In this document: positions 14,433-46,502 of the stretch, in pieces
Numbering within the stretch: the first letter of the stretch is position 1
Layout of the letters: each line of letters starts with the position of its first letter
Origin: a virus
DNA: 64,000 nt
Direction: 5' to 3' (one strand)
IMG/VR virus record: IMGVR_UViG_3300047312_000028
Coordinates: 62,001-126,000 of that record
Notes under the pieces: model-generated
Seen by the model: only the letters and a program-made list of their open reading frames with translations
The model's database searches: none
What the model was told of the DNA's origin: nothing
Translations under genes and position numbers: made by a program

Positions 14433-14675
14433 ATGTCTGGTCTAAATAATATCGTACCTATCGAGAATACCGATCTTGTAAGAGATATGGATAGCAAAGC
14501 GGTAGTGAGTACAGACCTTGACGGTCTTCGTCGCTATAAAGAATCACGACGAAGAACGCTTGCAGCCAATAAAGAGTTGCAAGAGACTAAAAATCGCCTG
14601 GAAGTTATTGAAGGCGACATGCGAACATTGAAAAGAATTGTGGGTGAACTTACCACATTGAGGAGCCGCGGATAA
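14433..14675 (+). CDS. Small coiled-coil protein between baseplate and fibres
   Basis: This 80-residue protein has a charged C-terminal half. From about residue 36 to 78 a heptad-like pattern (YKESRRRTLAANKELQETKN continuing into RLEVIEGDMRTLKRIVGEL) predicts a coiled coil. It is not recognised by family. It starts 8 bases after the DUF4815 gene with AAGGAT as ribosome binding site, and its stop overlaps the first fibre gene (TAATG), so it is co-translated with both. A role as an adaptor or fibre-assembly coiled coil is a guess from position. Confidence 0.72.
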   Translation: MSGLNNIVPIENTDLVRDMDSKAVVSTDLDGLRRYKESRRRTLAANKELQETKNRLEVIEGDMRTLKRIVGELTTLRSRG

Positions 14676-17017
14676 TGTCGATTGAACAGATATCTACACT
14701 AAACACATTCGGTCAACTTATCACCACAGTCTCCGCTTTGGTGGCCGTGGCGAATAACTTCACTGACGGTCCTCAATCACAGACGGGATCGACTTGGACA
14801 TTTACAAACGCCAACGTGGGCGTCAATGTCTTAGGTACGTTGCTTGCAACCACAGGAAACATCGGCATCCTTAATGCTTCCCAGGCGAATCTTACTAACG
14901 AGACAGTAGGTACTTCAAATATTTCCAGTGCTAATGTGACCGTTGCCAACATTGGTGGAGCGACAATCACAAATATCTATAGCACAGATCACTCAACAGC
15001 TAACGCGAACGTATCTGGCCTGTTACAAGTCAGTGACCGCGCGAACATCTATTCCGCAAACATTCAAACAGCAAACATCGGCTCTCTTGTTATTACATCA
15101 TTGATTGCCACATCATTGACGGTACCTGTATTGAATGCCAGCTTTGCCAACGTTACTACATTATCTGTCACAGGCACCTCGCAGCACAATGCGCTCGTGG
15201 CAACATTACTCACAGCGACCAATGCAAATGTAGGAATTCTAAATTCATCCACAGCGAATATCACAGGAGAAACTGTAGGCACGTCGAATATCTCTGTGGC
15301 GAATATCACATTCTTGACTGTCGGTACTCAGAATATTTCATTTGTTAATATCACAAGCGCAACCCTTGTAACATTAAACACAAGTTTCGCCAACGTTACA
15401 GTCTCAAATGTATTATCTGAAACTGTGGGTGTGTTGAATGCTGGCTTTGCGAATATCCTATCAGCAAATGTCGTATCTGTGAATACCTCTGTAGCAAATA
15501 TCACGACGATTCTTTCCAATACCGTCATGTCATTTAACCCAACAGCGAACTTGGGTATTGCGACAAAGAACTATGTAGATACAGGCGCCGGAGCAAACCT
15601 AGTCAATAAGTTATCTTTTAATTCCAAGGGTGATATTATTGTTGGTACCGGGGCGAACACCTACGCTGCACAGAATGTAGGAACGAATGGACAGGTTGTT
15701 ATCGTCGATACAAACCAACCAAATAGCTTAAGATATGCGCCTCGTCCTTCACAGATGTTCCGTGGTTTAATTATGGGTTCTTCTCAAGCAGACAAATCAG
15801 CAAACGGAACACAATTGACTATTACTAGATTGGATGAAGTTACAATGGACGATGGAGAAGTTGTAACAGGCTGGGCGCCAGCTACAATCGATATCAGTTC
15901 AAACGGTGCGGTCAACCTTCTTGACACGGGAGTTGTGCTTGCAAATACCTGGTATGAAGTGTACGCCATTCGTAAGCGTGTAGATGGAACGAAGGGATTC
16001 TTAATCCATCGTGCATTAGATCGTAAACCAGATCAGAACACCATGAACGCGATCACCTATCCAACTGTGGCAGGTGCTACGCTGGGAGTTGGTGCCAACA
16101 CTCCAAACACAACCTTATATACACGTCTTGGACAGAGTTTTACACCAAACGTTGCAGGCCCTCTCACTAGCATCGAAGTCAGAGCATTCAAGGTTGGCGC
16201 AACCGCAAATGGAAATGTCTGGTTGACTCTACATGCTAACACAGCAGGATCTCCTAACGGAACTGCATTGGCTACAAGTAGAAAGATGGATATTACACGT
16301 CTTCAGGTCACCACCGCCTCGAACTTGAGATTTATATTTGATACTACATCAAACGTAGCATTGGCTAACTCTTACTTCTGGGTGTTCAATGTGGATTACC
16401 CAAGTATCTCAGGATTGTCTGTGAACCTCGTATCCTCTCTAGCCAATACAGAATTGAATGCGAATGGTGTAAATAGAGGATTACCATACGGAAACACTGG
16501 CGCCTCATGGGTCAGCCTGGCACCAGGCGTCGGCACCTTCATGTACAAAACCTACGTTGAGGCGAATAGTACAGCAGTGACTCTACCAGCCGGGTACGAT
16601 CAGACATGTTTGATAAGCTATGTCGGAGTTGATAGCAACACAAGAATTAAAGAATACACCCAAAAAGATCGAACGATTTATACCTATTACACTGCCCAGT
16701 GGGCAAGTCCTCCGATCTTCCAGATTCAGAATCCTGAAGTTGTGGACTTATTATTCAATCTTCCTCCAGTGCCAGTGACAGCGCAATTCTTACACACTGG
16801 TGGTGGTTCCCCATTGATCTACACCTTGGGTAGATTCTGGGCGCTTGACTTGGGAACGACATTCGTGGAAGGTGCCTTCGGTGGAGGATATCAGATGGGA
16901 CAAGGAGGAGGTGGCACATCCGCTATGTACCTTTCATTCTGGGTTGAACAACAGGCAGTTCTGACCAAGACACAAACAGCTTCATCCAAACTCTATCCAG
17001 TGTCCTGGACTTTCTAA
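14675..17017 (+). CDS. Tail fibre protein, member 1 of a tandem quartet
   Basis: This 780-residue protein has a fibrous N-terminal half: dozens of short ANxxxxN-V/I-xNxSxANIT repeats between about residues 40 and 290, typical of an elongated beta-rich trimer. At about 300 a TKNYVDTGAGAN motif marks entry to a module shared with the next three genes: GDIIVGTGANT, GTNGQVV, a DDGEVVTGW segment, an NTWYEVYAIR segment, a LGQSFTPN segment, a PNGTALATSR segment and LPAGYDQTCLISYV. Its first 40 residues differ from members 2-4 and probably attach it to the baseplate. The start overlaps the coiled-coil gene stop. A fibre or receptor-binding role is inferred from the architecture. Confidence 0.85.
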   Translation: MSIEQISTLNTFGQLITTVSALVAVANNFTDGPQSQTGSTWTFTNANVGVNVLGTLLATTGNIGILNASQANLTNETVGTSNISSANVTVANIGGATITNIYSTDHSTANANVSGLLQVSDRANIYSANIQTANIGSLVITSLIATSLTVPVLNASFANVTTLSVTGTSQHNALVATLLTATNANVGILNSSTANITGETVGTSNISVANITFLTVGTQNISFVNITSATLVTLNTSFANVTVSNVLSETVGVLNAGFANILSANVVSVNTSVANITTILSNTVMSFNPTANLGIATKNYVDTGAGANLVNKLSFNSKGDIIVGTGANTYAAQNVGTNGQVVIVDTNQPNSLRYAPRPSQMFRGLIMGSSQADKSANGTQLTITRLDEVTMDDGEVVTGWAPATIDISSNGAVNLLDTGVVLANTWYEVYAIRKRVDGTKGFLIHRALDRKPDQNTMNAITYPTVAGATLGVGANTPNTTLYTRLGQSFTPNVAGPLTSIEVRAFKVGATANGNVWLTLHANTAGSPNGTALATSRKMDITRLQVTTASNLRFIFDTTSNVALANSYFWVFNVDYPSISGLSVNLVSSLANTELNANGVNRGLPYGNTGASWVSLAPGVGTFMYKTYVEANSTAVTLPAGYDQTCLISYVGVDSNTRIKEYTQKDRTIYTYYTAQWASPPIFQIQNPEVVDLLFNLPPVPVTAQFLHTGGGSPLIYTLGRFWALDLGTTFVEGAFGGGYQMGQGGGGTSAMYLSFWVEQQAVLTKTQTASSKLYPVSWTF

Positions 17018-17023
17018 GTGACT

Positions 17024-17031
17024 CATAAATA
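17024..17031 (+). promoter_or_regulatory. T4-type late promoter box (CATAAATA) for fibre genes 2-4
   Basis: CATAAATA lies in the 23-base gap between fibre genes 1 and 2. The expected transcription start is about 17037, only 4 bases before the ATG at 17041, and the intervening sequence has no Shine-Dalgarno. It should serve the three linked paralogues downstream. Confidence 0.82.
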
Positions 17032-17040
17032 CCTTTCACT

Positions 17041-18921
17041 ATGCCATTTGTATGGAATAACAATCCAAATCTCCCAATCGTTATACCTCCCGAGGTCTTA
17101 GGACCAACGGAGGTTTCTACCGAGGTGCACGTTGTCGCAAACACCGTCAATGTGAGCCCACTTCTTGGCGTCCTCTCTTACAACACTACTAACATTGGGT
17201 ACGACGTAATCTACGGATACGATTCTCTCAATGTCACAAACTTTCATACTGACCATCTGATTGGTGATAACTTACGAGTGGGTGTGGCTAACCTCAATGT
17301 GGCAGTCATTAACACAGCCGTCATTGGAAATGCTACCATCGCTAATTTAACGGCTCAACAAATATTCATGAATACCACACCATCTGCGAATGAGCATATG
17401 GTGACCAAGGGGTATGTGGATACTCTCGTAGCCAACTCTACACCACAGGGCGGCAACTTACAACTTCTGATTCAGCAAGCAGGAGATTTGTTAGTGGGCA
17501 TCGCCGATAATACAGCCAGCCGACTCGCAGTGGGTAATAGTGGGCAAGTGTTGACAGCAGGCGGTGCAGCTACCACGAATGTTCAATGGGTATTGTTTTC
17601 TGGCGGAGGCGATCAATCATCATTTAGAAATTTGGTTATCAGAACACACACCGATTATCCACAATCCAATACCAAAGTACAATTACTCCATGCCGATGAA
17701 ATTGTTATGGACGATGGGACTGTCACAAGAAACTGGTCACAGACAATCGCCGACATTACAGTGAATGGAGTAAATGGATTAGACACCGGGACTATGACTT
17801 CCAATTCATGGTATGAGATTTATGCGATACGAAATCCTACCAGTAACACTCAGGCCCTTCTATTTCATAAAGCGTTAGATAGAAAGCCCTGGATCACGGC
17901 TAATGATTTCTTTACTTTTTCTGTGGCGCAACCGGTAGGGAGGGCGACTAACGGATTTGATACGGTGTTAAAGGCATCCCAACAGTTTATTCCCCCCATT
18001 ACAGGAAATGTGACAAGCATTGAAATGTCAGTCAATCGTACCGCGAATGGCCCGTCGGGAAATTGCTGGGTCACGATTGAAGCACAGGATGCACAGGGTA
18101 ATGCTAGTGGGGTGGCTCTTGCAACAAGCAGTTATAGGTTTGCTCAGGATTTACCGATAGAGACAAACGCTGGACGATTACGATTTGTTTTTGATCCACC
18201 CACTCAAGTTGTGGCGGGTAATGGTTACTGTATGGTATACAACACAGATTATTCGTTGTCGGCCGATCGGTACACACAATTATACGGCATCGCCACGAAT
18301 ACGTACCCAGACGGAAATGCTAAGATATTCAGCGCGAACACAAATACGTGGCGTCCAATCACTGGCACTATCATAAGTGATTTTAATTTCCGTGTGTTTA
18401 TAGAAGCCAATAATACCCCACTGGTGATGCCAAGTGGATATACACAAAAATGCTTACTGAGTTATGTCTCGACTGGTCATGGAATGTGGTTTCGTGAGTA
18501 TAGCCAGAGAAATCGAAAAATGTCCATGTTGCACCATTGGAATTGGAGGTTTATTGATTTCAATAGCGGCGCGGCGTATGAGCCATACCTGCAACCACAT
18601 CTAATCCCTTCGGGTACTACATTCACGATAGATGCTTCATTTGGAGTGCCCCCGACTCCTTGTATGGTGCAACTTGCACATATCACCAGTGCAGATAGTT
18701 TCCTTCATCGCTTTGCTGATATTCATGCTCCTGCAATAACAGGAAACGTGGTTACCGCAGGGGGGAGTATCGTTGAAGCGGATGGGGCGATCTATGCGAA
18801 TAGCCCACAGGGGTCCGGCATCTATCATAACAATCCCCTACTTGTTGAAGAACAAGCATTTTTGTATTACGTCACGTCTTTTTCATTTGCGTTACTGATG
18901 CCTGCAACCATAGAGTTTTAA
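17041..18921 (+). CDS. Tail fibre protein, member 2 of the quartet
   Basis: This 626-residue protein starts with MPFVWNNNPNLP and then a GPTEVSTEVHVVANT segment, an N-terminal module of about 60 residues shared with members 3 and 4. A short NxxxANLxVAxINTA region follows. At 121-127 comes VTKGYVD, then GDLLVGIADNTASRL (148-162) and GNSGQVL (165-171), then the shared C-terminal body (DDGTVTRNW, NSWYEIYAIRNP, NCWVTIE, SGVALATSS, MPSGYTQKCLLSYVS). It has no ribosome binding site, and the late promoter lies just 9 bases before the ATG. It most likely forms the trimeric shaft and head of an adhesin; the receptor cannot be guessed. Confidence 0.85.
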   Translation: MPFVWNNNPNLPIVIPPEVLGPTEVSTEVHVVANTVNVSPLLGVLSYNTTNIGYDVIYGYDSLNVTNFHTDHLIGDNLRVGVANLNVAVINTAVIGNATIANLTAQQIFMNTTPSANEHMVTKGYVDTLVANSTPQGGNLQLLIQQAGDLLVGIADNTASRLAVGNSGQVLTAGGAATTNVQWVLFSGGGDQSSFRNLVIRTHTDYPQSNTKVQLLHADEIVMDDGTVTRNWSQTIADITVNGVNGLDTGTMTSNSWYEIYAIRNPTSNTQALLFHKALDRKPWITANDFFTFSVAQPVGRATNGFDTVLKASQQFIPPITGNVTSIEMSVNRTANGPSGNCWVTIEAQDAQGNASGVALATSSYRFAQDLPIETNAGRLRFVFDPPTQVVAGNGYCMVYNTDYSLSADRYTQLYGIATNTYPDGNAKIFSANTNTWRPITGTIISDFNFRVFIEANNTPLVMPSGYTQKCLLSYVSTGHGMWFREYSQRNRKMSMLHHWNWRFIDFNSGAAYEPYLQPHLIPSGTTFTIDASFGVPPTPCMVQLAHITSADSFLHRFADIHAPAITGNVVTAGGSIVEADGAIYANSPQGSGIYHNNPLLVEEQAFLYYVTSFSFALLMPATIEF

Positions 18922-18922
18922 T

Positions 18923-20734
18923 ATGCCATTTATTTGGACCAATCAACCACAACTTCCGTCACCACCACAAATCGAAACCCCCGGCCCTCTAGAGGTTTCG
19001 ACCCTTGTGGATAAGGTTGCCAACACTGCGAATGCTGGCGACACACTACTCTATTACACTCCAAATACACAATACAACGTGGTGCATGTTATTCCCCAAA
19101 TGAATGTTCGTACAACCAGATTAACAAATGCCAACGTTGGTCACCTCACGGTCAATGCGTCTATCAATATCGAACACACCTATATCAACACCGCAGTATT
19201 TGGTAGTGTGACTGCAAACGTACTCTACCTTGAAGTGGGCACGATGGGGCGCGCTCCAAATTCAAATAATGAAATAGCCACAAAAGAATATCTCGATTCT
19301 CTTGTATCCAACATTACTCCTGGTGGGAGCGATCTTCAAAACCTTATCGATGCTGCGGGAGATTTACTTGTGGGGGTTTCCCCCAATACCGCGGTACGGT
19401 TACCTGTAGGGAACAGTGGACAAGTCTTGTCTGTTGATTTTTCTGAAACGTCTGGGTTGCGTTGGAAAACTATTGGTTCAACTGGTAGTGAAGTGTTTTC
19501 GGGGCTGTGGTTACAAACTCACCAGAAGCGTTACCTTCAAAATACACAAATATGGCTACGACATTGTGCGGATGTGGTTTACACTGATGGGAGTCATGGA
19601 CGCGGGTTAAGTAACTTGGTCTGTGATATCACTGTCTCCGGGGTAGGTGGACTTGATACTGGCGTCGAACGTAACTCCCAGTGGTATGAGATTTATATGA
19701 TCCGAGACACAGCGAACAGCGCCAATGCGTTATTGTTACACCAATCCACCAATATTGTCAATGAGGCCTCATTAACTACCGTAACAGACTTTTCACGAAT
19801 ATTGAGAGGGGCCACCGATCCAAATGATCTTTTAGGACAATCATTTGTGTCAGCCAACGGAGGACTGATACATTCTGTTGAACTTGAATTTTCTTCTGTT
19901 GGATCGCCTAATGGTTTACTGTGGGTAGAAATAAGGGATGATAGTGGGCAGGGTGGAGGATTTCCTGGTAACACTATTGTAACCAGTCGTGTATTCGATA
20001 CAACAAGAATTCTTTCTGAGAATTCTAGAATTCGATTTATCTTTGATACCGATGCGGCATTGCTAGCGAATATCTCATATCATATAGTCTTGACCGCGGA
20101 CTACACACGAAGCGATTCAAACTATATACAACTAAGGGGGCTCGCTGCTGGTGGCTATCCTTCTGGAAAAGCAATAGAGCATCATTTTAATGATGGAGTG
20201 TGGTTCAACTGCTCGGATGTATCCGGGCCTGGTGATTTTTATTTCAAGGTATTCATTCAAAATATTCCTGCAACAAATATTGTTCTTCCTAGTTCATATG
20301 ACGTATATTGTCTGTTGGGATATGTCTACAACAATAGCGCGGGGAATTTTAAGCATTTTATTCAACGTGACCGTCACCTCTTAGCATTTATATCGCAGGA
20401 TTGGAGAGGATATACAACCGCAACTGGTGCAATTGAGGCAGCAGATTTGTCGACCGTGCTACCCCCAAGAGATGGAATGGCACTTGTTGAGGTGATGTAT
20501 CGATCCCCCGCGGCACTACATATTCCTATCGGTGGAATCGATTGCACAGATATGCCCGTCACTCTTATCACAAAGAATGGTTATACCACAGCGAACACCC
20601 ACGGACTTTTTGGTCCTGCAAGTGGTGGGGCAGGATTATACAAATACGCTCCCATTATCATAGAGAATCAAACAATGCTCGTTCGTTCCAATGTGCCCAA
20701 CTGTAATGTGTATGTAACAGATTTTGCTTTTTAG
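18923..20734 (+). CDS. Tail fibre protein, member 3 of the quartet
   Basis: This 603-residue protein shares the whole layout of member 2: MPFIWTNQPQLP start, PLEVSTLVDKVANT, ATKEYLDSLV, GDLLVGVSPNTAVRLPVGNSG, SQWYEIYMIRDT, LGQSFVSANGG, LPSSYDVYCLLGYVY and the FIQRDRHLL segment. The start codon follows the previous stop by one base, so it is translated by coupling. Local base use looks somewhat different from its neighbours, with more cccc and gggg runs than member 1, as expected if the paralogues have different histories. Recombination among members is possible. Confidence 0.85.
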   Translation: MPFIWTNQPQLPSPPQIETPGPLEVSTLVDKVANTANAGDTLLYYTPNTQYNVVHVIPQMNVRTTRLTNANVGHLTVNASINIEHTYINTAVFGSVTANVLYLEVGTMGRAPNSNNEIATKEYLDSLVSNITPGGSDLQNLIDAAGDLLVGVSPNTAVRLPVGNSGQVLSVDFSETSGLRWKTIGSTGSEVFSGLWLQTHQKRYLQNTQIWLRHCADVVYTDGSHGRGLSNLVCDITVSGVGGLDTGVERNSQWYEIYMIRDTANSANALLLHQSTNIVNEASLTTVTDFSRILRGATDPNDLLGQSFVSANGGLIHSVELEFSSVGSPNGLLWVEIRDDSGQGGGFPGNTIVTSRVFDTTRILSENSRIRFIFDTDAALLANISYHIVLTADYTRSDSNYIQLRGLAAGGYPSGKAIEHHFNDGVWFNCSDVSGPGDFYFKVFIQNIPATNIVLPSSYDVYCLLGYVYNNSAGNFKHFIQRDRHLLAFISQDWRGYTTATGAIEAADLSTVLPPRDGMALVEVMYRSPAALHIPIGGIDCTDMPVTLITKNGYTTANTHGLFGPASGGAGLYKYAPIIIENQTMLVRSNVPNCNVYVTDFAF

Positions 20735-20741
20735 GTGACTT

Positions 20742-22673
20742 ATGGCTTTTATTTGGAATAATACTCCAAAAACACCTGCTCCGAATATCCCTATTCCCGT
20801 TCCCCCTTCTGAAATCAGTTACAAGGTGGGTGCAGTGGCGAATAGTGTGGACTACGGTGGAGAAGTGCGTTACAACACCGCCAACAAATCCTATGATGTG
20901 GTGTATGAATTTCCAACACTGAATGTTGGGGATGTGAATATCGATAACCTGATATTTGATACTGCCGACGTTCAGACCCTTCGAGCGAACATTGCGGCGG
21001 CTAACACCGTCACACTCAATACCGCGAATATCTCCAATGCGAATGTTCTTGTTGGTGTTATCATCGGCAATGCCATCTCAAATTCTAGTGTAGTCACAAA
21101 AGAATATGTGGATAATGCTATTGCAGCGATTTCTGGTGGATCTGGATTTGATACCACCGCGAATATCTTTTTGCAAAAAGGAGATTTGTTAGTCGGAATC
21201 AGTCAAAACACCGCTCTACGTTTACCCGCAGGTAGCAATGGACAAGTCTTGACAGTGAATACCGCTGCCTCATTAAAAGTCTCTTGGATGGATTCTCCGA
21301 TCTCACAGGAAACCCTTGGGTTGTCCATTGGGAGCCACTGGCACCCATATAAAAAGACCACCACGATTCTATTGAAGAACGCCAATGCGATTGTTATGGA
21401 AAATGGCGATCATGTGAGTGGGTGGAGTAACTTAACAGCAAATATCACAACCAGTGGTGCCGGTGGGCTCGATAGCGTAAGTGGTTTAGCCGCCAACACA
21501 TGGTATTCGGTATATGCGATTTACAATCCAGATACCGGAAACAAAGCGTTACTCCTTCACCAACTTGAAACCCGGGTCATAGATCAGAACTGGCCAATTG
21601 CCATCGATACAGAAGTCGCTTTTCTTGGGTTTAATGCCACAAACGCCACCAATCCATTTACAAGATACGTTACAAAACTTTCTCAAAGTTTTGTTCCTAC
21701 AGTCACAGCCCCCGTGTATGGTGTAGAAGTGAGAATGGGTTGCCAATTGATAGACGCTGGGAACTGTTGGATCACTCTAGAACATGATGATGGGTTTGGA
21801 AATGCTAGCGGATCAGTGGTTGCCACAAGCAGAGTCATATCAACCTTGGAGAGAGGGCCCGTGGGTACAAGCCCAGGTACATGGAATACCCTCTTTCTAT
21901 TTGATACCCTCACTACACTTGGATCAGGTGGTCGTTATCATTTTGTGGTCAATACCGATCGTCTACCCGCGGTGACACTCGATGCAAATGCTATTACAAT
22001 TGAAGGGAACACGGCGCCGACCACTAACATACTCCAGAGAAATTTTATGGCATCCGTTGGTTATAATGCGTTTCCAGGAAATGATATTTATTCAGGCTAT
22101 GGAGATTGCCGATCTTGGAATGCTGTCAGCCAAAGTTGGTGGACCACCTCTAATACTGGAACGGGGTTTGCAGAACCAACGGATTTGTATTTTAAGATTT
22201 GGCATATCTTTAACAGAAACAACGTGGTGTTGCCCGCTGGCTATACACAAAAGGCACTCATTGGATATGCGTGTACTAATGTGAACAGTCGCCTAAAGGA
22301 ATACAAACAAGTTGATCGTACTATGTGTACAGGGTATAGCGACGATTGGTGGGGTTGGACAAGTTCCGCCTCCCCTCAAGGTAATGAGCTTGTTCTCTTG
22401 TCACATGTAATTCCTCCGGTCACTTGTTCGGTGCAATTACTCACACAACAAGCGCCTACTGGATTCCAGGGTCCAGGATGTTTTACGCCTGCGATCACCT
22501 CAACCACGGCTTTTAATATCCCTATGTTTTCTGCAAGAGGAGTTGTTAATTATCAATCTAGAGGTAGTGAAATTTTTGTTTCTCAACCAGTGGAGGTGTT
22601 GGATTATCAACGAATTCTAGCATACCAGATCGATACCTCCACAAAAATGTATATTGCAAGCATCACCTTCTAG
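20742..22673 (+). CDS. Tail fibre protein, member 4 of the quartet
   Basis: This 643-residue protein begins MAFIWNNTPKTP and then an SEISYKVGAVANSV segment, aligning with the N-termini of members 2 and 3. It continues with VTKEYVDNAI, GDLLVGISQNTALRLPAG, GSNGQVLTVN, NTWYSVYAIYNP, LSQSFVPTV, NCWITLEHDDGFG, SGSVVATSRV and LPAGYTQKALIGYA. The central region differs most from the other members by short insertions. A weak ribosome binding site (AGGTGA) precedes the ATG. The stop is followed within 5 bases by the next late promoter box, closing the quartet. Confidence 0.85.
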   Translation: MAFIWNNTPKTPAPNIPIPVPPSEISYKVGAVANSVDYGGEVRYNTANKSYDVVYEFPTLNVGDVNIDNLIFDTADVQTLRANIAAANTVTLNTANISNANVLVGVIIGNAISNSSVVTKEYVDNAIAAISGGSGFDTTANIFLQKGDLLVGISQNTALRLPAGSNGQVLTVNTAASLKVSWMDSPISQETLGLSIGSHWHPYKKTTTILLKNANAIVMENGDHVSGWSNLTANITTSGAGGLDSVSGLAANTWYSVYAIYNPDTGNKALLLHQLETRVIDQNWPIAIDTEVAFLGFNATNATNPFTRYVTKLSQSFVPTVTAPVYGVEVRMGCQLIDAGNCWITLEHDDGFGNASGSVVATSRVISTLERGPVGTSPGTWNTLFLFDTLTTLGSGGRYHFVVNTDRLPAVTLDANAITIEGNTAPTTNILQRNFMASVGYNAFPGNDIYSGYGDCRSWNAVSQSWWTTSNTGTGFAEPTDLYFKIWHIFNRNNVVLPAGYTQKALIGYACTNVNSRLKEYKQVDRTMCTGYSDDWWGWTSSASPQGNELVLLSHVIPPVTCSVQLLTQQAPTGFQGPGCFTPAITSTTAFNIPMFSARGVVNYQSRGSEIFVSQPVEVLDYQRILAYQIDTSTKMYIASITF

Positions 22674-22677
22674 AACA

Positions 22678-22685
22678 CATAAATA
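22678..22685 (+). promoter_or_regulatory. T4-type late promoter box (CATAAATA) for the repeat fibre operon
   Basis: CATAAATA starts 5 bases after the stop of fibre gene 4 and 36 bases before the GTG start at 22721. The predicted leader of about 30 bases contains a GAGGTG ribosome binding site. Confidence 0.83.
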
Positions 22686-22720: not shown

Positions 22721-23053
22721 GTGGCTGGATACGTTCCCCTTGAAATCGAGCAATATTCTAACTTTTCCCGTATCATTACCATTAAAGACAGCGCCGGGGT
22801 CGCTCAGAATCTATCTGGGTACTCAGCGAACACTTTAATGAAGAAGTCGTTTTATTCTTCCCAGTCAAACACAATCACCACCACAATCAGCGATGCGTCA
22901 AATGGAGAAATTACACTCTCCATGACCTCAGCGAACAGTTCTGGTCTCACGCCTGGACGCTACTGGTATGATTTGACCACCACGACCCCGGGTGGTATTG
23001 TACAACGTGTTATCGAGGGTATTGTGGTCGTGAGCCCAGGGGTTACGCACTAA
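22721..23053 (+). CDS. Small beta-sandwich (Ig-like) tail protein
   Basis: This 110-residue protein starts at GTG behind GAGGTG. The sequence (VPLEIEQYSNFSRIITIKDS, GVAQNLSGYSANTLMKKS, GEITLSMTS, LTPGRYWYDLTTTTPGG, QRVIEGIVVVSPGVT) reads as a compact beta sandwich. This type is common beside phage fibre genes, where such domains decorate or attach fibres. The pattern NLSGYS...ITLSMTS...LTPGRYWYDL is one I associate with baseplate-upper or fibre-adaptor proteins, but no exact family is claimed. Its stop overlaps the next small gene (TAATG). Confidence 0.78.
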   Translation: MAGYVPLEIEQYSNFSRIITIKDSAGVAQNLSGYSANTLMKKSFYSSQSNTITTTISDASNGEITLSMTSANSSGLTPGRYWYDLTTTTPGGIVQRVIEGIVVVSPGVTH

Positions 23054-23248: not shown

Positions 23249-26200
23249 GTGGCAAGTCCTAACATCACAGTACAAGTTAAAGGTGGCATCACCAAAGTTG
23301 TTACCGCAGATAAGCTCCAGGTATCTGGCGCCCCGGCGTCCAATTCGTTTGGTGTGGTCGCGGTAGTTGGGCAAAATAATGTCGTCGCCCATATCGCTTC
23401 AGATACGCTTGAAGTGAAGTCTGGTTCCGGAATCCTTGTCACTACAGATAGTCCTAATAACGCCGTAACTATTTCTGCAACTGGTGGTGCGGCATTCGAT
23501 CAGTTTGCCCGCGATCATGCGAATGCAGCATTTGACCAGGCGAATGGCGCGTTCGATCAAGCGAATAATGCTACACTCACTGCCCAGGAGGCGTTCGATC
23601 AAGCCAACACAGTCTACGATACCGTCAATACAACCATTCTAGTTACACAATCTTCCTACGATCACGCGAATGGGGCATTTGATAAAGCCAACGGAGCAAT
23701 CTTTACGGCCGCGCAGATTCGTGCCAATCTTTCCAACACGGCGCCAATCAACTACGATTCAGCCACAGGTACAATCAGTCACGCGGATTCCAGTGTCACA
23801 CCTACGACCTATGGCAATACGACCTTTGTTCCAACCATCACAGTCGATGCAAAGGGGCATGTCACGTCTATTACCAACACCGCGATTGCACTTCCACCAA
23901 GCTTCGATCAGTTTGCACGAGACACCGCGAATGGTGCATTTTTAGAAGCTAACGCGGCATACAATCAAGCGAACACTGCAAATGTTACGGCCCAAGCTGC
24001 ATTCAACAAAGCAAATGCTGCCAACGTATTAGCGAACACTGCAAACACAACTGCGCAAGCCTCGTTTGACAAAGCCAACAGTGCAGGAATTACAGCACAG
24101 GCAGGTTTCGATAAAGCTAATTCAGTAAATGTTACGGCGCAGGGAGCATTCGATAAAGCAAACGCGGCCAATGTCTTAGCGAATACCGCAAACACCACAG
24201 CACAGGCAGCGTTTGATACAGCGAATGGCGCCTACAGCGAAGCAAACACAGTACTCATTATAGCTCAGGCCGCATACGATCAAGCAAACGATGCGGGGGG
24301 AATCGCTGTTACCGCGCTTATCGTAGGACATGCGGCGTTTGACAAAGCGAACACCGCCAATGTCACTGGGCAATCTGCCTTTGATAAAGCGAATGGTGCA
24401 GCACAACTTTCCTTTGTCACGGTTAATGTAGCAGGACAGAGTGATGTAGTTGCCGACTCGAATTCTGATACATTGGTTATCGTAGCTGGGACGGGTATTG
24501 TTATCACCACCGATTCACCAAACGACACGATCACCTTTGCGGCGACCGGTGGTTCGGCAATCGATCAATTCTCTAGGGATCATGCTAACGGCGCCTTCGA
24601 TAAGGCGAATGGAGCAGCACAGAATTCATTTGTCACCTTTAACGTCGCCGGTCAGAATGATATCGTAGCAGATTCTAATACGGACACTCTTCAACTTATC
24701 GCTGGCACGGGAATGGTCATTACGACTGATTCAACGAATGCTACAATCACCTTTGCGGCGACTGGTGGGTCAGCCGTCGATCAGTTTGCGCGAGACCAAG
24801 CCAATGCGGCATTCAATCAGGCAAATACCGCGAACACAACAGGGCAATCTGCCTTTAACAAAGCGAACGCAGCAAACGTTCTTGCGAATACGGCCAATAC
24901 AACTGCCCAGGCTTCGTTTGATAAAGCCAATAACGCAGGAGTAGTGGCCTCTTCCGCATACAATCAAGCGAATCTAGCCACCAGCAACGCGGACGCAGCA
25001 TTTGCCAGAGCGAACGTGGCTAACGTACTTGCGAATACTGCCAACACGACTGCACAAGCGGCGTTTGATAAAGCCAATACAGATGCGGTTATTGTAACTT
25101 CGGCTTACAATCAAGCCAACATAGCAACTAGCAATGCAGATGCGGCATTTGCTGAGGCGAACGCTGCCTATGCGAACGCAAATACCGCAATCTACACGGC
25201 GGCACAAATCCGTGCGAACGTTTCCAATACCACACCGATCAACTATGATCCGGCAACTGGTGTTATCAGTCACGCGGATTCTGGTGTAGTAGCCACGACC
25301 TATGGCAACACGACTTTTGTTCCTGTTATCACAGTGGACGCGCAGGGCCACGTCACGGCGATTACGAATACGGCAATCGCGCTCCCACCAAGCACGGATG
25401 AATTTGCACGGGCGACTGCCAATGCTGCCTACAACCAAGCTAATGTTGCAACCACGAATGCAGATGCAGCCTTTACCAAGGCGAATGGTTCTGCGCAACT
25501 CTCGTTTGTCACGGTCAATGTGGCTGGGCAAAGCGATATTGTAGCAGATTCAAATTCAGATACTCTAATCCTTGTTGCCGGATCAGGTATCTCTATTAGC
25601 ACAGATTCCCCAAATGATATAATCACGATTACCGCAACGGGGGGATCGGCATTTGACCAGTTCGCCCGCGATCAGGCCAATGGTGCGTTTGATAAAGCTA
25701 ACGTTGCAACGACCAATGCAGATGCAGCCTTTCTAGAAGCCAACGCAGCATTTAGTAAAGCCACTATAGCAACGACCAATGCAGATGCAGCGTTCGCGCA
25801 AGCCAATTCTGCATTCAACAAGGCCAGTATAGCAACGACTAATGCAGATGCGGCCTTTTTAGAAGCTAATGCTGCCTACGCCAATGCGAACACCGCGATT
25901 TATACCGCTGGTCAGATTCGTGCGAATCTCAGCAATACGGCTCCAATCAATTACGATCCTACAACTGGAGTTATCAGTCACGCCCTATCAGGAGTCGCAG
26001 CATCCGGATACGGAGATGCCGCGACAGTTCCAAAGGTTGTCGTAGACGATAAGGGGCATGTCACCAGTGTCACCAACACTACCATTGCCATTGACACCTC
26101 ACAAATCACCTCTGGTACTTTAGCTGTTGGTCATGGAGGCACTGGACAAACCGCAGCCTCTATTGTTAATGGAGCAGTTCTCATTGGGAACACAGTCTCA

Positions 26201-28177
26201 GGCGGCTATGATCTGAATACATTAGTTCAGGGCACTGGCATTGTTATCACGAACGACAAGGGATCGATCACTATTGCTGCTACTGGCGGCGCTGCCGCCG
26301 ATCAGTTTGCACGAGACCAGGCAAATGCAGCATTCAACCAAGCCAACGTAGCAACGACTAATGCAGATGCGGCCTTTTTAGAAGCTAATGCAGCATTTAC
26401 TCAAGCGAGTATTGCCACGACAAATGCAGATGCCGCCTTCGCACAAGCCAACAGTGCATTTAGCAAAGCCAGCATAGCAACCACGAATGCCGACGCAGCG
26501 TTTACAGAAGCCAACGCGGCATTTAACAAAGCTAGCATTGCAACGACCAATGCTGATGCGGCTTTCGCGCAAGCCAATGCTGCATATGCGAATGCCAATA
26601 CAGCGATTTATACTGCCGCGCAAATCCGAGCCAATCTCAGTAATACGGCTCCGATCAACTACGATCCAGCAACAGGTATCATAAGTCATGCGGTATCTGG
26701 CGTTACGCCTGGATCATATGGAGACGCTGCCACCGTAGCGAAGGTTGTAGTGGATTCTGATGGGCATGTTACCTCTGTGGTGAATACTGCGATTGCTATT
26801 GATACTTCACAGATAGCAAGTGGTACACTCTCAACGGGCCGCGGAGGCACTGGCCAAACCGCAGCCTCTATTGTCAACGGTGCATTGCTTATCGGGAATA
26901 CAGTCTCAGGTGGATATGACCTGAACACTATCACTCAGGGTACAGGTATTCTTGTAACAAACGATAAAGGAACGATCACTATTGCCGCGGCGGCTTCTGG
27001 TAGTGGTAATGCCTTTGGGGTAGTGAATGTTTCAACACCTGGGCAAAGCAACATCGTCGCCTCGGGTGCCACGACTTTGATTTTGGTACCGGGCACGGGT
27101 ATCATGATGACCACGGATGCTACCTCGAATGCCATCACGATCACGTCGGCCGGATCTGTACCATTTCCAAAGAGTGTGGATATTCTCTTCCCAACAACAG
27201 GGGATGAAATTACTTTCTTCTATACCAATACTGCTATCACCTTCTCTCGTGTAGTGTCTGTGGTCAAGGGATCGGCACCCAATGTCGTATTCTCCTTGAG
27301 CTATGCGAACACACGAGCCCCTGGAACAGTTGGTACAGCAATCACAGGGCAGGTCGTATGTTCTAACACCACAAACGGAGTCTACACTACCGCATTCACT
27401 AATGCCACCGTCCCAGCAAACAACTATGTCTTTTTGGATATCGTATCGTCCGTAGGTAATGAAACAGAATTCCATGTGACAATGGAAATTGCGACAGTGA
27501 GTACCTCATTCGTCGATCAATATGCACGAGACAAAGCCAATGGTTCAGTGCAAACTGGATTTGTCACAGTCAATGTGGCCGGTCAATTAGATGTGGTGGC
27601 TGATTCTAACACTGATATCCTAACATTGGTGGCTGGTAGTGGAATCAACATTACAACTGATGCCCCAAACGATACAATTACTTTGGCAACCACAACCACT
27701 CTGGCAACTCCGGTTAATACAACATCTGGCACATCCATTGATTTCACAGGAATTCCAGCAGGAACCAAGAAAATCTTCGTGATGTTCTCCAATGTTTCAA
27801 CAAATAGCACTTCATCACTTATCCTTCAAATTGGAGATAGCGGAGGGATTAGGAACACAGGGTATGCCAGTATCGGTACAACCATAATCAATGGTGCGGT
27901 TCCTGGGGTCTTAGCATACACCACGGGCTTCGGCCTGATGGGAACCACATCGACTACCGATGCTGCTCATTGGAATGGTACTGTTATGCTAACATTACTG
28001 GATGCCTCTGCCTTTACGTGGACCGCTAGCGGCACTATTTGTCGCACCGATGTAGCCACAACTGGTATATGCACAGGCGCAAAATCACTCCCTGCAACGT
28101 TAGACCGATTGCGTATCACAACGGTCTTGGGCACCCAGGCATTTGATGCTGGATCAATCAATATCATATATGAATAA
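23249..28177 (+). CDS. Giant repeat tail fibre protein
   Basis: This 1642-residue protein uses a GTG start behind AGGAGA. Most of its length is an Ala/Asn-rich repeat of the form A-F/Y-xx-A-N-x-A, repeated dozens of times, which should form a long trimeric helical shaft. Interspersed are beta modules: five or so ADSNSDTLxLVAGTGIxITTD units, four AQIRANxSNTxPINYD...ISHA...YG...VPxITVDAxGHVT units and two GGTGQTAASIVNGAxLIGN units, all familiar from phage long tail fibres. The last 150 residues (GTSIDFTGIPAGTKKIFVMF, GDSGGIRNTGY) form a globular tip domain widespread on fibre ends. It is the likely long tail fibre of this phage. Confidence 0.9.
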   Translation: MASPNITVQVKGGITKVVTADKLQVSGAPASNSFGVVAVVGQNNVVAHIASDTLEVKSGSGILVTTDSPNNAVTISATGGAAFDQFARDHANAAFDQANGAFDQANNATLTAQEAFDQANTVYDTVNTTILVTQSSYDHANGAFDKANGAIFTAAQIRANLSNTAPINYDSATGTISHADSSVTPTTYGNTTFVPTITVDAKGHVTSITNTAIALPPSFDQFARDTANGAFLEANAAYNQANTANVTAQAAFNKANAANVLANTANTTAQASFDKANSAGITAQAGFDKANSVNVTAQGAFDKANAANVLANTANTTAQAAFDTANGAYSEANTVLIIAQAAYDQANDAGGIAVTALIVGHAAFDKANTANVTGQSAFDKANGAAQLSFVTVNVAGQSDVVADSNSDTLVIVAGTGIVITTDSPNDTITFAATGGSAIDQFSRDHANGAFDKANGAAQNSFVTFNVAGQNDIVADSNTDTLQLIAGTGMVITTDSTNATITFAATGGSAVDQFARDQANAAFNQANTANTTGQSAFNKANAANVLANTANTTAQASFDKANNAGVVASSAYNQANLATSNADAAFARANVANVLANTANTTAQAAFDKANTDAVIVTSAYNQANIATSNADAAFAEANAAYANANTAIYTAAQIRANVSNTTPINYDPATGVISHADSGVVATTYGNTTFVPVITVDAQGHVTAITNTAIALPPSTDEFARATANAAYNQANVATTNADAAFTKANGSAQLSFVTVNVAGQSDIVADSNSDTLILVAGSGISISTDSPNDIITITATGGSAFDQFARDQANGAFDKANVATTNADAAFLEANAAFSKATIATTNADAAFAQANSAFNKASIATTNADAAFLEANAAYANANTAIYTAGQIRANLSNTAPINYDPTTGVISHALSGVAASGYGDAATVPKVVVDDKGHVTSVTNTTIAIDTSQITSGTLAVGHGGTGQTAASIVNGAVLIGNTVSGGYDLNTLVQGTGIVITNDKGSITIAATGGAAADQFARDQANAAFNQANVATTNADAAFLEANAAFTQASIATTNADAAFAQANSAFSKASIATTNADAAFTEANAAFNKASIATTNADAAFAQANAAYANANTAIYTAAQIRANLSNTAPINYDPATGIISHAVSGVTPGSYGDAATVAKVVVDSDGHVTSVVNTAIAIDTSQIASGTLSTGRGGTGQTAASIVNGALLIGNTVSGGYDLNTITQGTGILVTNDKGTITIAAAASGSGNAFGVVNVSTPGQSNIVASGATTLILVPGTGIMMTTDATSNAITITSAGSVPFPKSVDILFPTTGDEITFFYTNTAITFSRVVSVVKGSAPNVVFSLSYANTRAPGTVGTAITGQVVCSNTTNGVYTTAFTNATVPANNYVFLDIVSSVGNETEFHVTMEIATVSTSFVDQYARDKANGSVQTGFVTVNVAGQLDVVADSNTDILTLVAGSGINITTDAPNDTITLATTTTLATPVNTTSGTSIDFTGIPAGTKKIFVMFSNVSTNSTSSLILQIGDSGGIRNTGYASIGTTIINGAVPGVLAYTTGFGLMGTTSTTDAAHWNGTVMLTLLDASAFTWTASGTICRTDVATTGICTGAKSLPATLDRLRITTVLGTQAFDAGSINIIYE
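23489..26640 (+). repeat. Protein-coding tandem repeats of the fibre shaft
   Basis: Within the giant fibre gene, DNA units encoding A-F/Y-D/N-x-A-N-x-A recur with high nucleotide similarity, for example gcaacgaccaatgcagatgc-like stretches several times between about 25690 and 26560. The larger module running from AQIRAN to the VTVDAxGHVT segment begins near 23696, 25195, 25900 and 26605. The near-identical blocks are potential sites of recombinational shortening or expansion of the shaft. Confidence 0.85.
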
Positions 28178-28207: not shown

Positions 28208-29032
28208 ATGTTAATTCAATCACTCACAACCGATACCATTACTCTCATTACAGACGTGACCTGTAACGTGGATGTAATGACGTGTTACATTGATCGAAAC
28301 CAATCCAACGGAACAGTTGGTATGGCGGATCGAACACTCACGTCTATTGCCACCGCAGCGACCACCACCATTGTTGGGGCCCCAGGTGCCAGCACTACAC
28401 GAAATATCAAAATGATGAGTATACGCAACACGAATGCGTTCAACTCTGTCTTTGCTACGATCCAATACAATGCGAACGGAACCGTGTATCAGATGCACAC
28501 CGCACGGTTATTGGCGGGCGAGTCAATAGAGTATACAGAGGAAATAGGATTTTTCAAGTTAATTGATTCCAGCCGCTTAGATCGTGTGTTTGTTGCGAAC
28601 GTCGATTCCACGTTTGCCACAGCGGCCACGTTCGCCGATATCACGGGATTGCAATGCCCAATGTTATCGGGGGTCACATATGGATTTTTGGCATGTGTCT
28701 ATCATATAGGAAACGCCACGACCACCGGGGCACAGTTTGGTGTGAAAATGAACGGTGGCACTCCTACGAATCTCAGGGCATCTATCGTGGACCCCGTGCT
28801 TGGAAGTACCTCAGCAGCGGTCTGGTCAGCAGGTTCAACGTCGGCAAATGACGTAGCGATGACCTTACAAACCACAGGCGCTGCCACCCTCGTTATGGGT
28901 ATCATCTCAGGGTATGTTACCCCTTCGGCTGATGGCACCTTCTCTCTTCGAGCGACTTCGGAAGTCACAGTCGCCGCTGGATTGGTTGTGAAGGCTGGTT
29001 CATGGTTACGTGTGTTCAGGCAAACAGGATAG
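28208..29032 (+). CDS. Fibre-tip / adhesin-associated protein, triplet member 1
   Basis: This 274-residue protein opens with LIQSLTTDTITLITDVTCNV, then an IDRNQSNGTVG segment, TAATTTIVGAP and ASTTRNIKMMSIRN. These define an N-terminal module of about 120 residues shared with the next two genes. The C-terminal half (GFLACVYHIGNATTTGAQFG and a final AGLVVKAGSWLRVFRQTG) is shared with member 2. The composition is beta-rich with no transmembrane segment. Three tandem copies directly after the long fibre suggest tip proteins or chaperone-like adhesins of differing specificity, analogous in position to T4 distal fibre and short fibre genes. Function is inferred. Confidence 0.75.
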   Translation: MLIQSLTTDTITLITDVTCNVDVMTCYIDRNQSNGTVGMADRTLTSIATAATTTIVGAPGASTTRNIKMMSIRNTNAFNSVFATIQYNANGTVYQMHTARLLAGESIEYTEEIGFFKLIDSSRLDRVFVANVDSTFATAATFADITGLQCPMLSGVTYGFLACVYHIGNATTTGAQFGVKMNGGTPTNLRASIVDPVLGSTSAAVWSAGSTSANDVAMTLQTTGAATLVMGIISGYVTPSADGTFSLRATSEVTVAAGLVVKAGSWLRVFRQTG

Positions 29033-29039
29033 GAACATT

Positions 29040-29864
29040 ATGATCTTTCAAACACTCACTACTGATACCATTTCTCTTATCACCGATGTTGCGTGTAGCG
29101 TCGATGTTGTGGCATCCTTTATCGACCGCAGTCAAAGTACCGGATTAGCTGGCCTGGCGGATAAGCAATTAACCAACGTAACGACGGCGGCGACCACGAC
29201 CATCGTGAGTGGCCCAGCTTCTTCCACCACCCGTAACCTGAAAGCCCTAAGTGTACTCAATACGAATACCTTTTCTAACGTGGCGGTGACAGTCCAATTA
29301 AGTGCGAACGGAACACTTTTTGAATTACACAAACAAACCCTCAATCCACAAGAATGTCTTAGATACACAGAGGGATATGGGTTCACCTCGGTTCGAGACT
29401 CCATCCGTTTGGAACGAACCTTCATTATGACCGCCAATTCTGTCCATACAAATACATCACCCTTTACCAATGTGGGTAATTTGTCATGCGCTCTCAAGGG
29501 AAATGTGATTTATGGATACATGGCATGTTTGCATCATATCAGTAACGCCACGACCACGGGGGCACGTTTCGCTATTGGGTATACGGGATCTGGAAATTTT
29601 ATAGTGGGATTGATCGATACGGTGACAGGGAACCCCACCGCGTCCATCCATTCAACGAACACTCAGAACAATCCGAACACAGCCATTTCATTACAAACTA
29701 CCGGATGCGCTAATATCCAAATGGGCATACTCTGTGGAACTTTCGCTCCATTGTCTGATGGGACCCTTTCAATCAGAGCGACACCATCCGTCAATAACGC
29801 CGCTGGGTTGACTGTGGTGGCTGGTTCATGGCTCAAGGTGTTTCGACGCACAGCGGAGGGGTAA
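29040..29864 (+). CDS. Fibre-tip / adhesin-associated protein, triplet member 2
   Basis: This 274-residue protein is taken to start at ATG 29040, because MIFQTLTTDTISLITDV then aligns exactly with member 1. An upstream in-frame ATG at 29010 would overlap member 1 and has no ribosome binding site. It is co-linear with member 1 over its whole length, from IDRSQSTGLAG and TAATTTIVSGP through ACLHHISNATTTGARF to AGLTVVAGSWLKVFRRT. Divergence is greatest in the surface-like middle region. Spacing is 7 bases from member 1 and 2 bases to member 3. Confidence 0.75.
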   Translation: MIFQTLTTDTISLITDVACSVDVVASFIDRSQSTGLAGLADKQLTNVTTAATTTIVSGPASSTTRNLKALSVLNTNTFSNVAVTVQLSANGTLFELHKQTLNPQECLRYTEGYGFTSVRDSIRLERTFIMTANSVHTNTSPFTNVGNLSCALKGNVIYGYMACLHHISNATTTGARFAIGYTGSGNFIVGLIDTVTGNPTASIHSTNTQNNPNTAISLQTTGCANIQMGILCGTFAPLSDGTLSIRATPSVNNAAGLTVVAGSWLKVFRRTAEG

Positions 29865-29866
29865 TT

Positions 29867-30736
29867 GTGTTAATTCTTACCAACACAACTGACAGTATTT
29901 CTATTATCACGTCACAGGCTTGTCAGTTGCATATCCAGGCGTTTTTCAATGATCGAAACCAAAGCACAGGATTGGTAGGCCTCACAAGCAAAGAGCAACA
30001 TAATATCAGCACGGCGGCGACCACCACGATAGTAGCAAGTCCTGCGGCGACCACCACTCGTAATATCAAGTCGATTGACATACGAAATGCCAACACGACG
30101 ATAGACGTGGATGTTACCATTCAGTATAACGCAAATGGAACACTCTATCAGATACATGCCGAACGATTATATGGAAACCAAATGCTCCAGTTTGTCGAAG
30201 GAAAGGGGTTTTCAAAAATTGGGGATCTACCTTTCTACGCGGTTGGGTTCGCAGATAACATTATCACAACCACACAAACAAATGCAGGTGGGGCAGCATC
30301 ACAAGCCATTGGAGGTTTGGTTCATGTCATAAAGTCAACTCCGGTGCATAGAACGTTTGCATCATTCGCTGTGCCTTTTTATAGGAGCGTCATTAACACG
30401 ACGGGCTCACAATTCGCGCTCAGACAAGAGAAGTTCTCGCAAGACTTTATCATATCGGGGGGCCTCGCTACTGCCGAAAATAGCCCGACGGGTTCCACAA
30501 AAACAGCAGGGGTTTCCTCTGGTGGATCTCTTCCCATAATTGCTCAGACGGTTAATCCCGCAACCAGTGGCATCACCATTGGTCTATTCTCGGCGCCTCT
30601 AGTCGTATCGTGGTCAGGAAGTTTTCAAATCAACGAGAAGCAAGTCACTTGGTACTTCGGGCAGTGGTCTAGTGTGGCAGCTTCGGGATGCGATATCATC
30701 GACGGTTGGCACATGGTCTTTGAACACACGGGGTAA
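29867..30736 (+). CDS. Fibre-tip / adhesin-associated protein, triplet member 3
   Basis: This 289-residue protein is taken to start at GTG 29867 behind GGAGGGG, since VLILTNTTDSISIITSQACQ then aligns with the other two members; the ATG at 29828 would overlap member 2. The N-terminal module is kept (NDRNQSTGLVG, TAATTTIVASP, ATTTRNIKSIDIRN, YNANGTLYQIH). After about residue 120 it is unrelated to members 1 and 2, with a longer domain containing GGLVHVIKSTPVHRTFASF and ending in DIIDGWHMVFEHTG. This is a conserved attachment domain with an exchanged effector domain, the usual signature of receptor-binding diversification. Confidence 0.75.
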   Translation: MLILTNTTDSISIITSQACQLHIQAFFNDRNQSTGLVGLTSKEQHNISTAATTTIVASPAATTTRNIKSIDIRNANTTIDVDVTIQYNANGTLYQIHAERLYGNQMLQFVEGKGFSKIGDLPFYAVGFADNIITTTQTNAGGAASQAIGGLVHVIKSTPVHRTFASFAVPFYRSVINTTGSQFALRQEKFSQDFIISGGLATAENSPTGSTKTAGVSSGGSLPIIAQTVNPATSGITIGLFSAPLVVSWSGSFQINEKQVTWYFGQWSSVAASGCDIIDGWHMVFEHTG

Positions 30737-45152: not shown

Positions 45153-46502
45153 ATGTTTTTATCAGAGAATCTAGAGAAAAAGTGGGCAGCAGTGCTTGAC
45201 CACGAATCCCTCCCAAAGATCACCGACAAGTATCGTCGCGCGGTCACTGCGATTGTTCTTGAGAACCAAGAAACCGCATTGAAGAGCGAAGCGAGAATGT
45301 TGAACGAATCTGCCCCAACCAACTCCACAGGTGGTGGGTTGACAGGTGGATCCGCCGCAGCAGGTCCAATGGCTGGTTATGATCCAATTCTTATCAGCTT
45401 GGTCCGTCGTTCCCTTCCAAACTTGATTGCATACGACGTATGCGGAGTGCAGCCAATGACCGGTCCAACAGGATTGATCTTCGCAATGCGTTCCAATTAT
45501 GCCAATGCGACAGCGGGCCGCTTGGATGAATCCTTCTACAACGAAGCCAACACTGGTTGGTCTGGTAACTTGGTTGCACAAACTGCAATCAGCTTGGCAG
45601 CAGATACTTCCCTCGGTTCCCAGAACGTGTTTGCTAGCACCATGACAACAGGTGGTGGTATCAACACAGTCACAGCAGAAGGTTTGGGTTCAGGTGGTGG
45701 TATTCCTCCATTCCAGGAAATGGGCTTCAGCATTGAAAAAGTCACGGTTACTGCAAAGACCCGTGCTTTGAAGGCTGAATACTCACTCGAACTCGCTCAG
45801 GATTTGAAGGCAATCCACGGTTTGGATGCTGAGACAGAATTGTCCAACATTCTTTCCGCAGAAGTGCTTTCTGAAATCAACCGCGAAGTCATCCGCACAA
45901 TCTACACGGTTGCGAAGGTTGGCTGCCAGGTTGGTACAACGACACCAGGTACTTTCGACCTTGACACCGACTCAAACGGTCGTTGGATGGTTGAAAAGAT
46001 CAAGGGTCTTGTATTCCAGATCGAGCGTGAAGCCAACGTCATTGCAAAGCAAACCCGTCGCGGTAAGGGTAACGTGGTCATCTGCTCTTCAGATGTGGCC
46101 TCGGCATTCGCACTCGCCGGCGTGCTTGACTATGCAGGAGCGTTGAAGGACAATGTGAACTTGAGTGTGGACGACACAGGTAACACCTACGCAGGTACCT
46201 TGCTCGGACGCTACAAGGTCTACATTGACCCTTACTTCCCAGCAGCCCAGTCAGCAGAATTCGCAGTTGTGGGTTACAAGGGTACGAACGCATTTGATGC
46301 GGGACTCTTCTACTGCCCATACGTTCCTCTCCAGATGGTTCGTGCTATTGACACGAACACCTTCCAGCCAAAGATCGGCTTCAAGACCCGATACGGTTTG
46401 GTTGCGAACCCATTCGCAGAAGGTCTCGTACAGGGTCTTGGTGCATTGAACGCAAAGGCGAACATGTACTACAGAGCATTGAAGATTTCCAACATTGCAT
46501 AA
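45153..46502 (+). CDS. gp23: Major capsid protein, gp23-like
   Basis: This 449-residue protein has the HK97-type capsid fold of T4 gp23. Conserved parts include SLVRRSLPNLIAYDVCGVQP then MTGPTGLIFAMRSNY, GFSIEKVTVTAKTRALKAEY, SLELAQDLKAIHGLDAETEL, GNVVICSSDVASAFALAGVL, YFPAAQSAEFAVVGYKG and KIGFKTRYGLVANPF. A prohead protease site of the L-x-E type, LNE before SAPT, predicts cleavage after Glu52, close to the equivalent position in T4 (after residue 65). The ribosome binding site is AAGGAG. A strong terminator follows. Confidence 0.97.
   Translation: MFLSENLEKKWAAVLDHESLPKITDKYRRAVTAIVLENQETALKSEARMLNESAPTNSTGGGLTGGSAAAGPMAGYDPILISLVRRSLPNLIAYDVCGVQPMTGPTGLIFAMRSNYANATAGRLDESFYNEANTGWSGNLVAQTAISLAADTSLGSQNVFASTMTTGGGINTVTAEGLGSGGGIPPFQEMGFSIEKVTVTAKTRALKAEYSLELAQDLKAIHGLDAETELSNILSAEVLSEINREVIRTIYTVAKVGCQVGTTTPGTFDLDTDSNGRWMVEKIKGLVFQIEREANVIAKQTRRGKGNVVICSSDVASAFALAGVLDYAGALKDNVNLSVDDTGNTYAGTLLGRYKVYIDPYFPAAQSAEFAVVGYKGTNAFDAGLFYCPYVPLQMVRAIDTNTFQPKIGFKTRYGLVANPFAEGLVQGLGALNAKANMYYRALKISNIA

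Follow-up and report, generated by a model that had tools for sequence, protein, structure and literature searches.

Four tandem paralogous fibre genes beside the baseplate genes of an uncultured T4-like myophage

Gene content of the fibre slot

The window analysed here is a stretch of 64,000 nucleotides (bases 62001-126000) from the record of an uncultured virus, 176,325 bp in length. Among its genes are those for T4-type sheath, portal, terminase and baseplate wedge proteins, and the product of 45153-46502 shares 63% identity with the Synechococcus phage S-H38 major capsid protein. The structural genes are assignable to the T4-like cyanophage/pelagiphage type, and the phage to the uncultured T4-like myophages. 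The slot examined has the gene order VrlC, coil80, four fibres and chap110 (Table 1). A tandem quartet of fibre genes had been proposed at 14675-22673 from the letters of the sequence, and four intact plus-strand open reading frames, m1 to m4, were found at exactly these positions. No fifth copy was found in the 176,325-bp record.

Table 1. Features of the fibre slot, in window coordinates.
Feature	Position	Strand	Basis or remark
VrlC/DUF4815 baseplate protein, 2069 aa	8216..14425	+	phrog_358, PF16075; tblastn to T4-like phage VrlC; left frame of slot
coil80, 80-aa coiled-coil-like virion protein	14433..14675	+	phrog_473 virion structural protein; beside anchor in all relatives
m1 (member 1), putative anchor fibre, 780 aa	14675..17017	+	ORF, alignment, own clade 100/100
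m1 N-terminal putative anchor (m1N), ~75 codons	14675..14899	+	kept across module swaps
m1 variable C-terminal tip	16649..17014	+	sequence comparison
Late-promoter-like CATAAATA upstream of m2	17024..17031	+	seen in ten quartet-type genomes, two of them with CTAAATA
m2 (member 2), tagged fibre, 626 aa	17041..18921	+	ORF, alignment, tree
m2 N-terminal putative docking tag, residues 1-40	17041..17160	+	sequence comparison
m2 variable tip	18493..18918	+	sequence comparison
m3 (member 3), tagged fibre, 603 aa	18923..20734	+	ORF, alignment, tree, structure model
m3 N-terminal putative docking tag	18923..19042	+	sequence comparison
m3 variable tip	20351..20731	+	sequence comparison; beta-rich model
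m4 (member 4), tagged fibre, 643 aa	20742..22673	+	ORF, alignment, tree
m4 N-terminal putative docking tag	20742..20861	+	sequence comparison
m4 variable tip	22296..22670	+	sequence comparison
Late-promoter-like CATAAATA upstream of chap110	22678..22685	+	right edge of exchanged block
chap110, 110-aa LtfC-like fibre assembly protein	22721..23053	+	phrog_3304/phrog_1084; right neighbour kept in relatives

Alignment of the four proteins revealed a shared body in which ~70 columns were invariant across all members, with 26-31% identity to m1. Profiles built from single positions scored the window's other positions at 242-450 bits, far above chance. The motifs that the sequence-only reading had listed as common to all four members kept their order, but they were not intact throughout: GDLLVG was altered to GDIIVG in m1, NCWVTIE to LLWVEIR in m3 and WYEIYAIR to WYSVYAIY in m4. 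The alignment confirmed that m2-m4 have their N-terminus in common and that the N-terminus of m1 is different and longer. The least conserved region was the C-terminal ~120 residues, termed the tip.

Neither Pfam nor NCBIfam contained a family for any of the four fibres, and PHROGs gave local matches only, to families with unknown function. One of the PHROGs families, phrog_877, matched the body of m2 at residues 313-439 (window 17977-18357; E 6.9e-5) and that of m3 at residues 260-393 (window 19700-20101; E 8.5e-8). This family was also matched by the VrlC protein, and a direct profile comparison of the body with a VrlC segment was not significant. In searches of PDB sequences the fibres matched only at the shafts, to designed beta-solenoids and to a pentapeptide-repeat protein, which we read as shared repeat composition. 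When m3 was modelled as a single chain with AlphaFold2, confidence was ~90 for most of residues 190-530 and the C-terminal end was also confident; the tag and shaft were modelled poorly, which is to be expected when an intertwined trimer is predicted from a single chain. Foldseek analysis of this model gave the phi812 baseplate as the best PDB match, with a low TM-score, and in the viral library phage fibre proteins led, again with low TM-scores. Structure prediction of the C-terminal heads, which had been put forward as a check, yielded a beta-rich model of the m3 tip alone and no confident structural match, and for this reason no fold name is claimed.

Position-specific lineages and exchange of the fibre set

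None of the isolate phages carried these fibres, their matches being short generic stretches only, and an m1 scan of bacterial genome contigs detected no relative. The quartet was found in the same order in eight uncultured genomes, namely the window, L007, L103, L006, L013/L091, L009, L011 and L010. Every readable member was open across the eight, and the decay of the other members in relatives that the sequence-only reading had considered was not seen. Three partial genomes (L008, L089 and L101) were consistent with the quartet, the contig end of L089 showing the start of a third gene's tag. The 168,789-bp record L006 (IMGVR_UViG_3300014202_000529) has a break inside m4, with the m4 end at the record's opposite end; this genome reads as circularly closed or permuted.

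Other relatives carried smaller sets. L090 has m1 and one tagged fibre. In L095, L096, L097/L098 and L100 we found a short anchor protein (345-442 aa) without the receptor body and one long tagged fibre (1063-1159 aa), directly after which the L095 contig stops. In more distant relatives all that was kept was a short protein bearing the m1 anchor; the fibre genes behind it, many of them in the same slot, were unrelated. The number of tagged fibres per genome was one or three, never two or four, in about twelve complete cases, a sample in which sets of two or four could still exist.

In a maximum-likelihood tree of the bodies every position formed its own clade (m1 100/100, m3 99/99, m4 100/100, and m2 100/97 after the single fibre of L090 had been set aside). 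Tips likewise found their best matches among same-position tips of other genomes, the m4 tip of L006 being cut in this comparison. These clades and tip matches indicate that the duplication predates the sampled radiation.

We found that the set behaves as a unit. In distance correlations among the eight quartets, the bodies of m2-m4 co-varied with one another and with the tips of m2 and m3 (rho 0.57-0.88), compared with rho of -0.25 to 0.29 against VrlC and 0.08-0.30 against m1N. By this measure m2-m4 co-vary as a block, independent of the baseplate gene. The m1 body gave an intermediate correlation, as expected if exchange junctions lie inside m1. L135, which is the same contig as L008 and carries m1 with its body and the m2 start, was 99.5% identical in DNA over 5,178 bp to the single-fibre type L098 up to about codon 75 of m1, after which the two were unrelated. 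L009 and L100 were 73% identical to about codon 63 of m1, and homology resumed just before chap110. From inside m1 onward, the replacing module in close relatives consisted of the short anchor protein and one long tagged fibre, and parsimony on the VrlC tree placed four changes between the quartet and single states. Comparison of relatives for gain, loss or swapping of members thus revealed whole-set replacement by a single fibre and no exchange of tips between positions.

GIY-YIG homing endonuclease genes (PF01541, above the cut-off) were present between coil80 and m1 in three contigs (L008:9396-10019, L098:4350-4973 and L090:9381-10001), at the left edge of the exchanged module, and it is plausible that such an endonuclease drives module exchange. 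An open reading frame at the same site in L103 (5050-5769) was GIY-YIG-like by eye, with no Pfam match. An insert between the gp8 and VrlC genes of L095 (3023-3508) resembled, by eye, a homing endonuclease of the HNH/NUMOD type.

The putative docking tag, a probable late unit and the proposed display of the fibres

The first ~75 residues of m1 were found in all relatives, even where everything behind them had been replaced, which suggests that the m1 N-terminus is an anchor beside the baseplate genes. This retention, and the separate tag shared by m2-m4, gave good support to the earlier proposal of one anchor-bearing fibre with three variants. Over tag residues 1-40, paralogues drawn from the same genome were more alike (identity 0.56) than those drawn from different ones (0.45), with a permutation p of 0.0005, the lowest value attainable, and they even exceeded orthologues (0.50). 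Beyond the tag, likeness was much greater between orthologues than between paralogues, and the within-genome effect, which was carried most by L010 and L103, faded. The 4-fold degenerate sites of the tag were saturated and no more alike within (0.33) than between genomes (0.31), ruling out recent gene conversion; with the likeness at the protein level, this points to selection. Selection for the same docking partner would be the simplest cause of the tag homogenisation. When five protein segments were compared with tag distances, coil80 alone correlated with them (rho 0.47); its Mantel p of 0.018 lost significance on correction, leaving coil80 as a weak lead and a candidate tag partner.

NATAAATA is a cyanophage late promoter motif (PMC2984593), and late promoters of this type were present in the window's structural region. 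ATAAATA occurred 15 times on the coding (+) strand of the window and once on the - strand, and 10 of the 11 sites in the structural region fell within its 2% intergenic portion. These sites give a map of late transcription units in the window. The late-promoter motif was located 14-17 nt upstream of m2 in all ten quartet-type genomes checked (as CTAAATA in L006 and L007) and also upstream of chap110, and it was absent upstream of m1, m3 and m4. With intergenic gaps of 1 nt between m2 and m3 and 7 nt between m3 and m4, these motif positions make m2-m4 look like one late unit apart from m1, which would lie within the VrlC unit. In addition, a Shine-Dalgarno-like sequence for m3 was observed inside the last m2 codons (window 18901-18922, and at the same place in relatives); the m2 end reads GTGGAG TTT TAA in L006 and L010 and is weaker in the window. 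This sequence may explain the Glu-Phe ending of m2 proteins.

We consider it reasonably probable that the locus encodes one anchor fibre and three non-redundant receptor-binding fibres that are displayed together. In such an arrangement m1 would be the baseplate-proximal fibre, its first ~75 residues anchored beside VrlC/coil80, and m2-m4 would be three different fibres whose common 40-residue tag docks onto one shared partner. Produced together from their own late promoter, m2-m4 would most likely all be on the same particle, and we infer that all four members are present in virions. Each beta-rich tip would be suited to a different surface structure, a role suggested by the position, variability and predicted beta-rich fold of the tips, and the fibre set probably decides which bacterial surfaces the phage grips. 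The set is passed on and exchanged among phages as a single block, and recombination inside m1 and before chap110 can replace it with a single long tagged fibre.

Other uses of the same genes were weighed against this model. It is unlikely, in our judgement, that m2, m3 and m4 join in a 1:1:1 ratio to make an asymmetric heterotrimer, a single stalk bearing three different tips. On this view the ancestral fibre, a homotrimer, would have become an obligate heterotrimer after triplication, and the population would switch between hetero- and homotrimeric versions by module swap. The restriction of tagged fibres to exactly one or three would suit such a fibre, as would the exchange of three for one as a block, the single late-promoter motif with short gaps and the likeness of tags within a genome. 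The length from tag to TKxYVD also fits, being 120-124 residues in m2-m4 of seven genomes (136 in one m2 with a tag insertion) and 116 in all three members of L010 despite their differing shaft sequences. However, this length argument depends on essentially one informative genome, and loop lengths vary among the heads. The literature searched offered no precedent for a phage fibre built as a heterotrimer, and three homotrimers docked side by side would also account for every observation.

One tag kept alike per genome suggests one socket, for which the three tagged fibres might instead compete, giving random mixtures per particle and a population mixed in receptor use; the strict retention of all three members and their order in eight genomes suggests that each is needed, and we regard competition as improbable. 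The sequence-only reading had also offered a recombination reservoir, in which the extra genes are variants of one displayed fibre. Tandem paralogues with a common tag could switch via homologous recombination, but the grouping of bodies and tips by position indicates no reservoir-type shuffling between members, and neither body nor tip had moved from one position to another. Since, moreover, the member count was constant, every copy was complete and had its start, and the late-promoter motif of m2 was conserved, a reservoir is very hard to credit.

Relation to known receptor-binding systems

Joint display of four receptor-binding proteins has a precedent. In phage CBA120 (Kuttervirus) ORFs 210-213, which lie side by side, encode the tailspikes TSP1-4; the baseplate anchor is on one of these and the rest attach via N-terminal domains, which gives several receptor specificities per virion (PMC8825819). 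With four tailspikes in CBA120, and with distant relatives that carry many fibre genes in the slot, the suggestion that four versions on one virion would be unusual was too strong. The window resembles CBA120 in that several putative receptor-binding proteins come from adjacent genes. The m1N kept beside the baseplate genes in all relatives suggests that m1 may carry an anchor of the kind found on one CBA120 tailspike. Unlike those of CBA120, the window fibres have one tag common to three members and one body common to all four, whereas in CBA120 gp10-like XD domains on TSP4 and TSP2 serve as sockets and docking involves different head domains (PMC8825819). At the sequence level, neither gp10 nor TSP4 chains were hit when PDB sequences were searched with profiles of m1, m1N and m2-m4, and Pfam gave no match to a gp10-like XD1-XD3 domain. 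Likewise, no enzymatic family that would indicate a glycan-degrading catalytic domain was found for the fibres in Pfam, NCBIfam or PHROGs. Because gp10-like docking and catalytic domains were not detected, the quartet is not placed in the CBA120 family. By analogy it would work like a multi-receptor-binding-protein module, with CBA120 as the nearest functional precedent.

The slot, which follows immediately after VrlC among T4-like structural genes, is that of the published host recognition cluster, which in pelagimyophages and cyanomyophages lies between VrlC and gp14 and is hypervariable with fibre-like genes (PMC7029224). In agreement with this, its content differs between close relatives, and Pelagibacter phages Mosig and HTVC008M and Ochrobactrum phage OC showed a matching baseplate order through VrlC and a small protein, followed by other fibre-like genes. 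As far as the available text of that report goes, the clusters are variable gene sets, with no account of a position-conserved 1+3 arrangement in which paralogous fibres have a tag in common (PMC7029224). The quartet also resembles T4-type tail fibre systems in having fibres by the baseplate genes, a T4-type late promoter motif and a downstream assembly protein, here LtfC-like; it differs in that the four fibres have no sequence homology to T4 fibres detectable in PDB sequence searches. The location and the presence of several receptor-binding proteins per virion were already known, from the host recognition cluster and CBA120 respectively, and the 1+3 architecture is new.

If the proposed model holds, three divergent receptor-binding fibres that use the same docking tag can persist in a phage lineage over long evolutionary time, and one long fibre can take the place of the three-fibre set. 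The code for attachment, in anchor and tag, would be separable from the code for recognition, in the tips, an aid to reading the host range of uncultured phages. The question of stoichiometry, three homotrimers or one heterotrimer, is made testable with recombinant proteins.

Two further features were noted beyond the slot. A 1642-aa long fibre at window 23249-28177 contains many repeats of the AFDQANxAFNKANTANVxANTANTTAQ type, and its length varies strongly among relatives. After it, at 28208-30736, lie three tandem paralogous small proteins (274, 284 and 302 aa). In L096 and L100, two homologues lie within the receptor slot, preceded by the short anchor protein and followed by the long tagged fibre.
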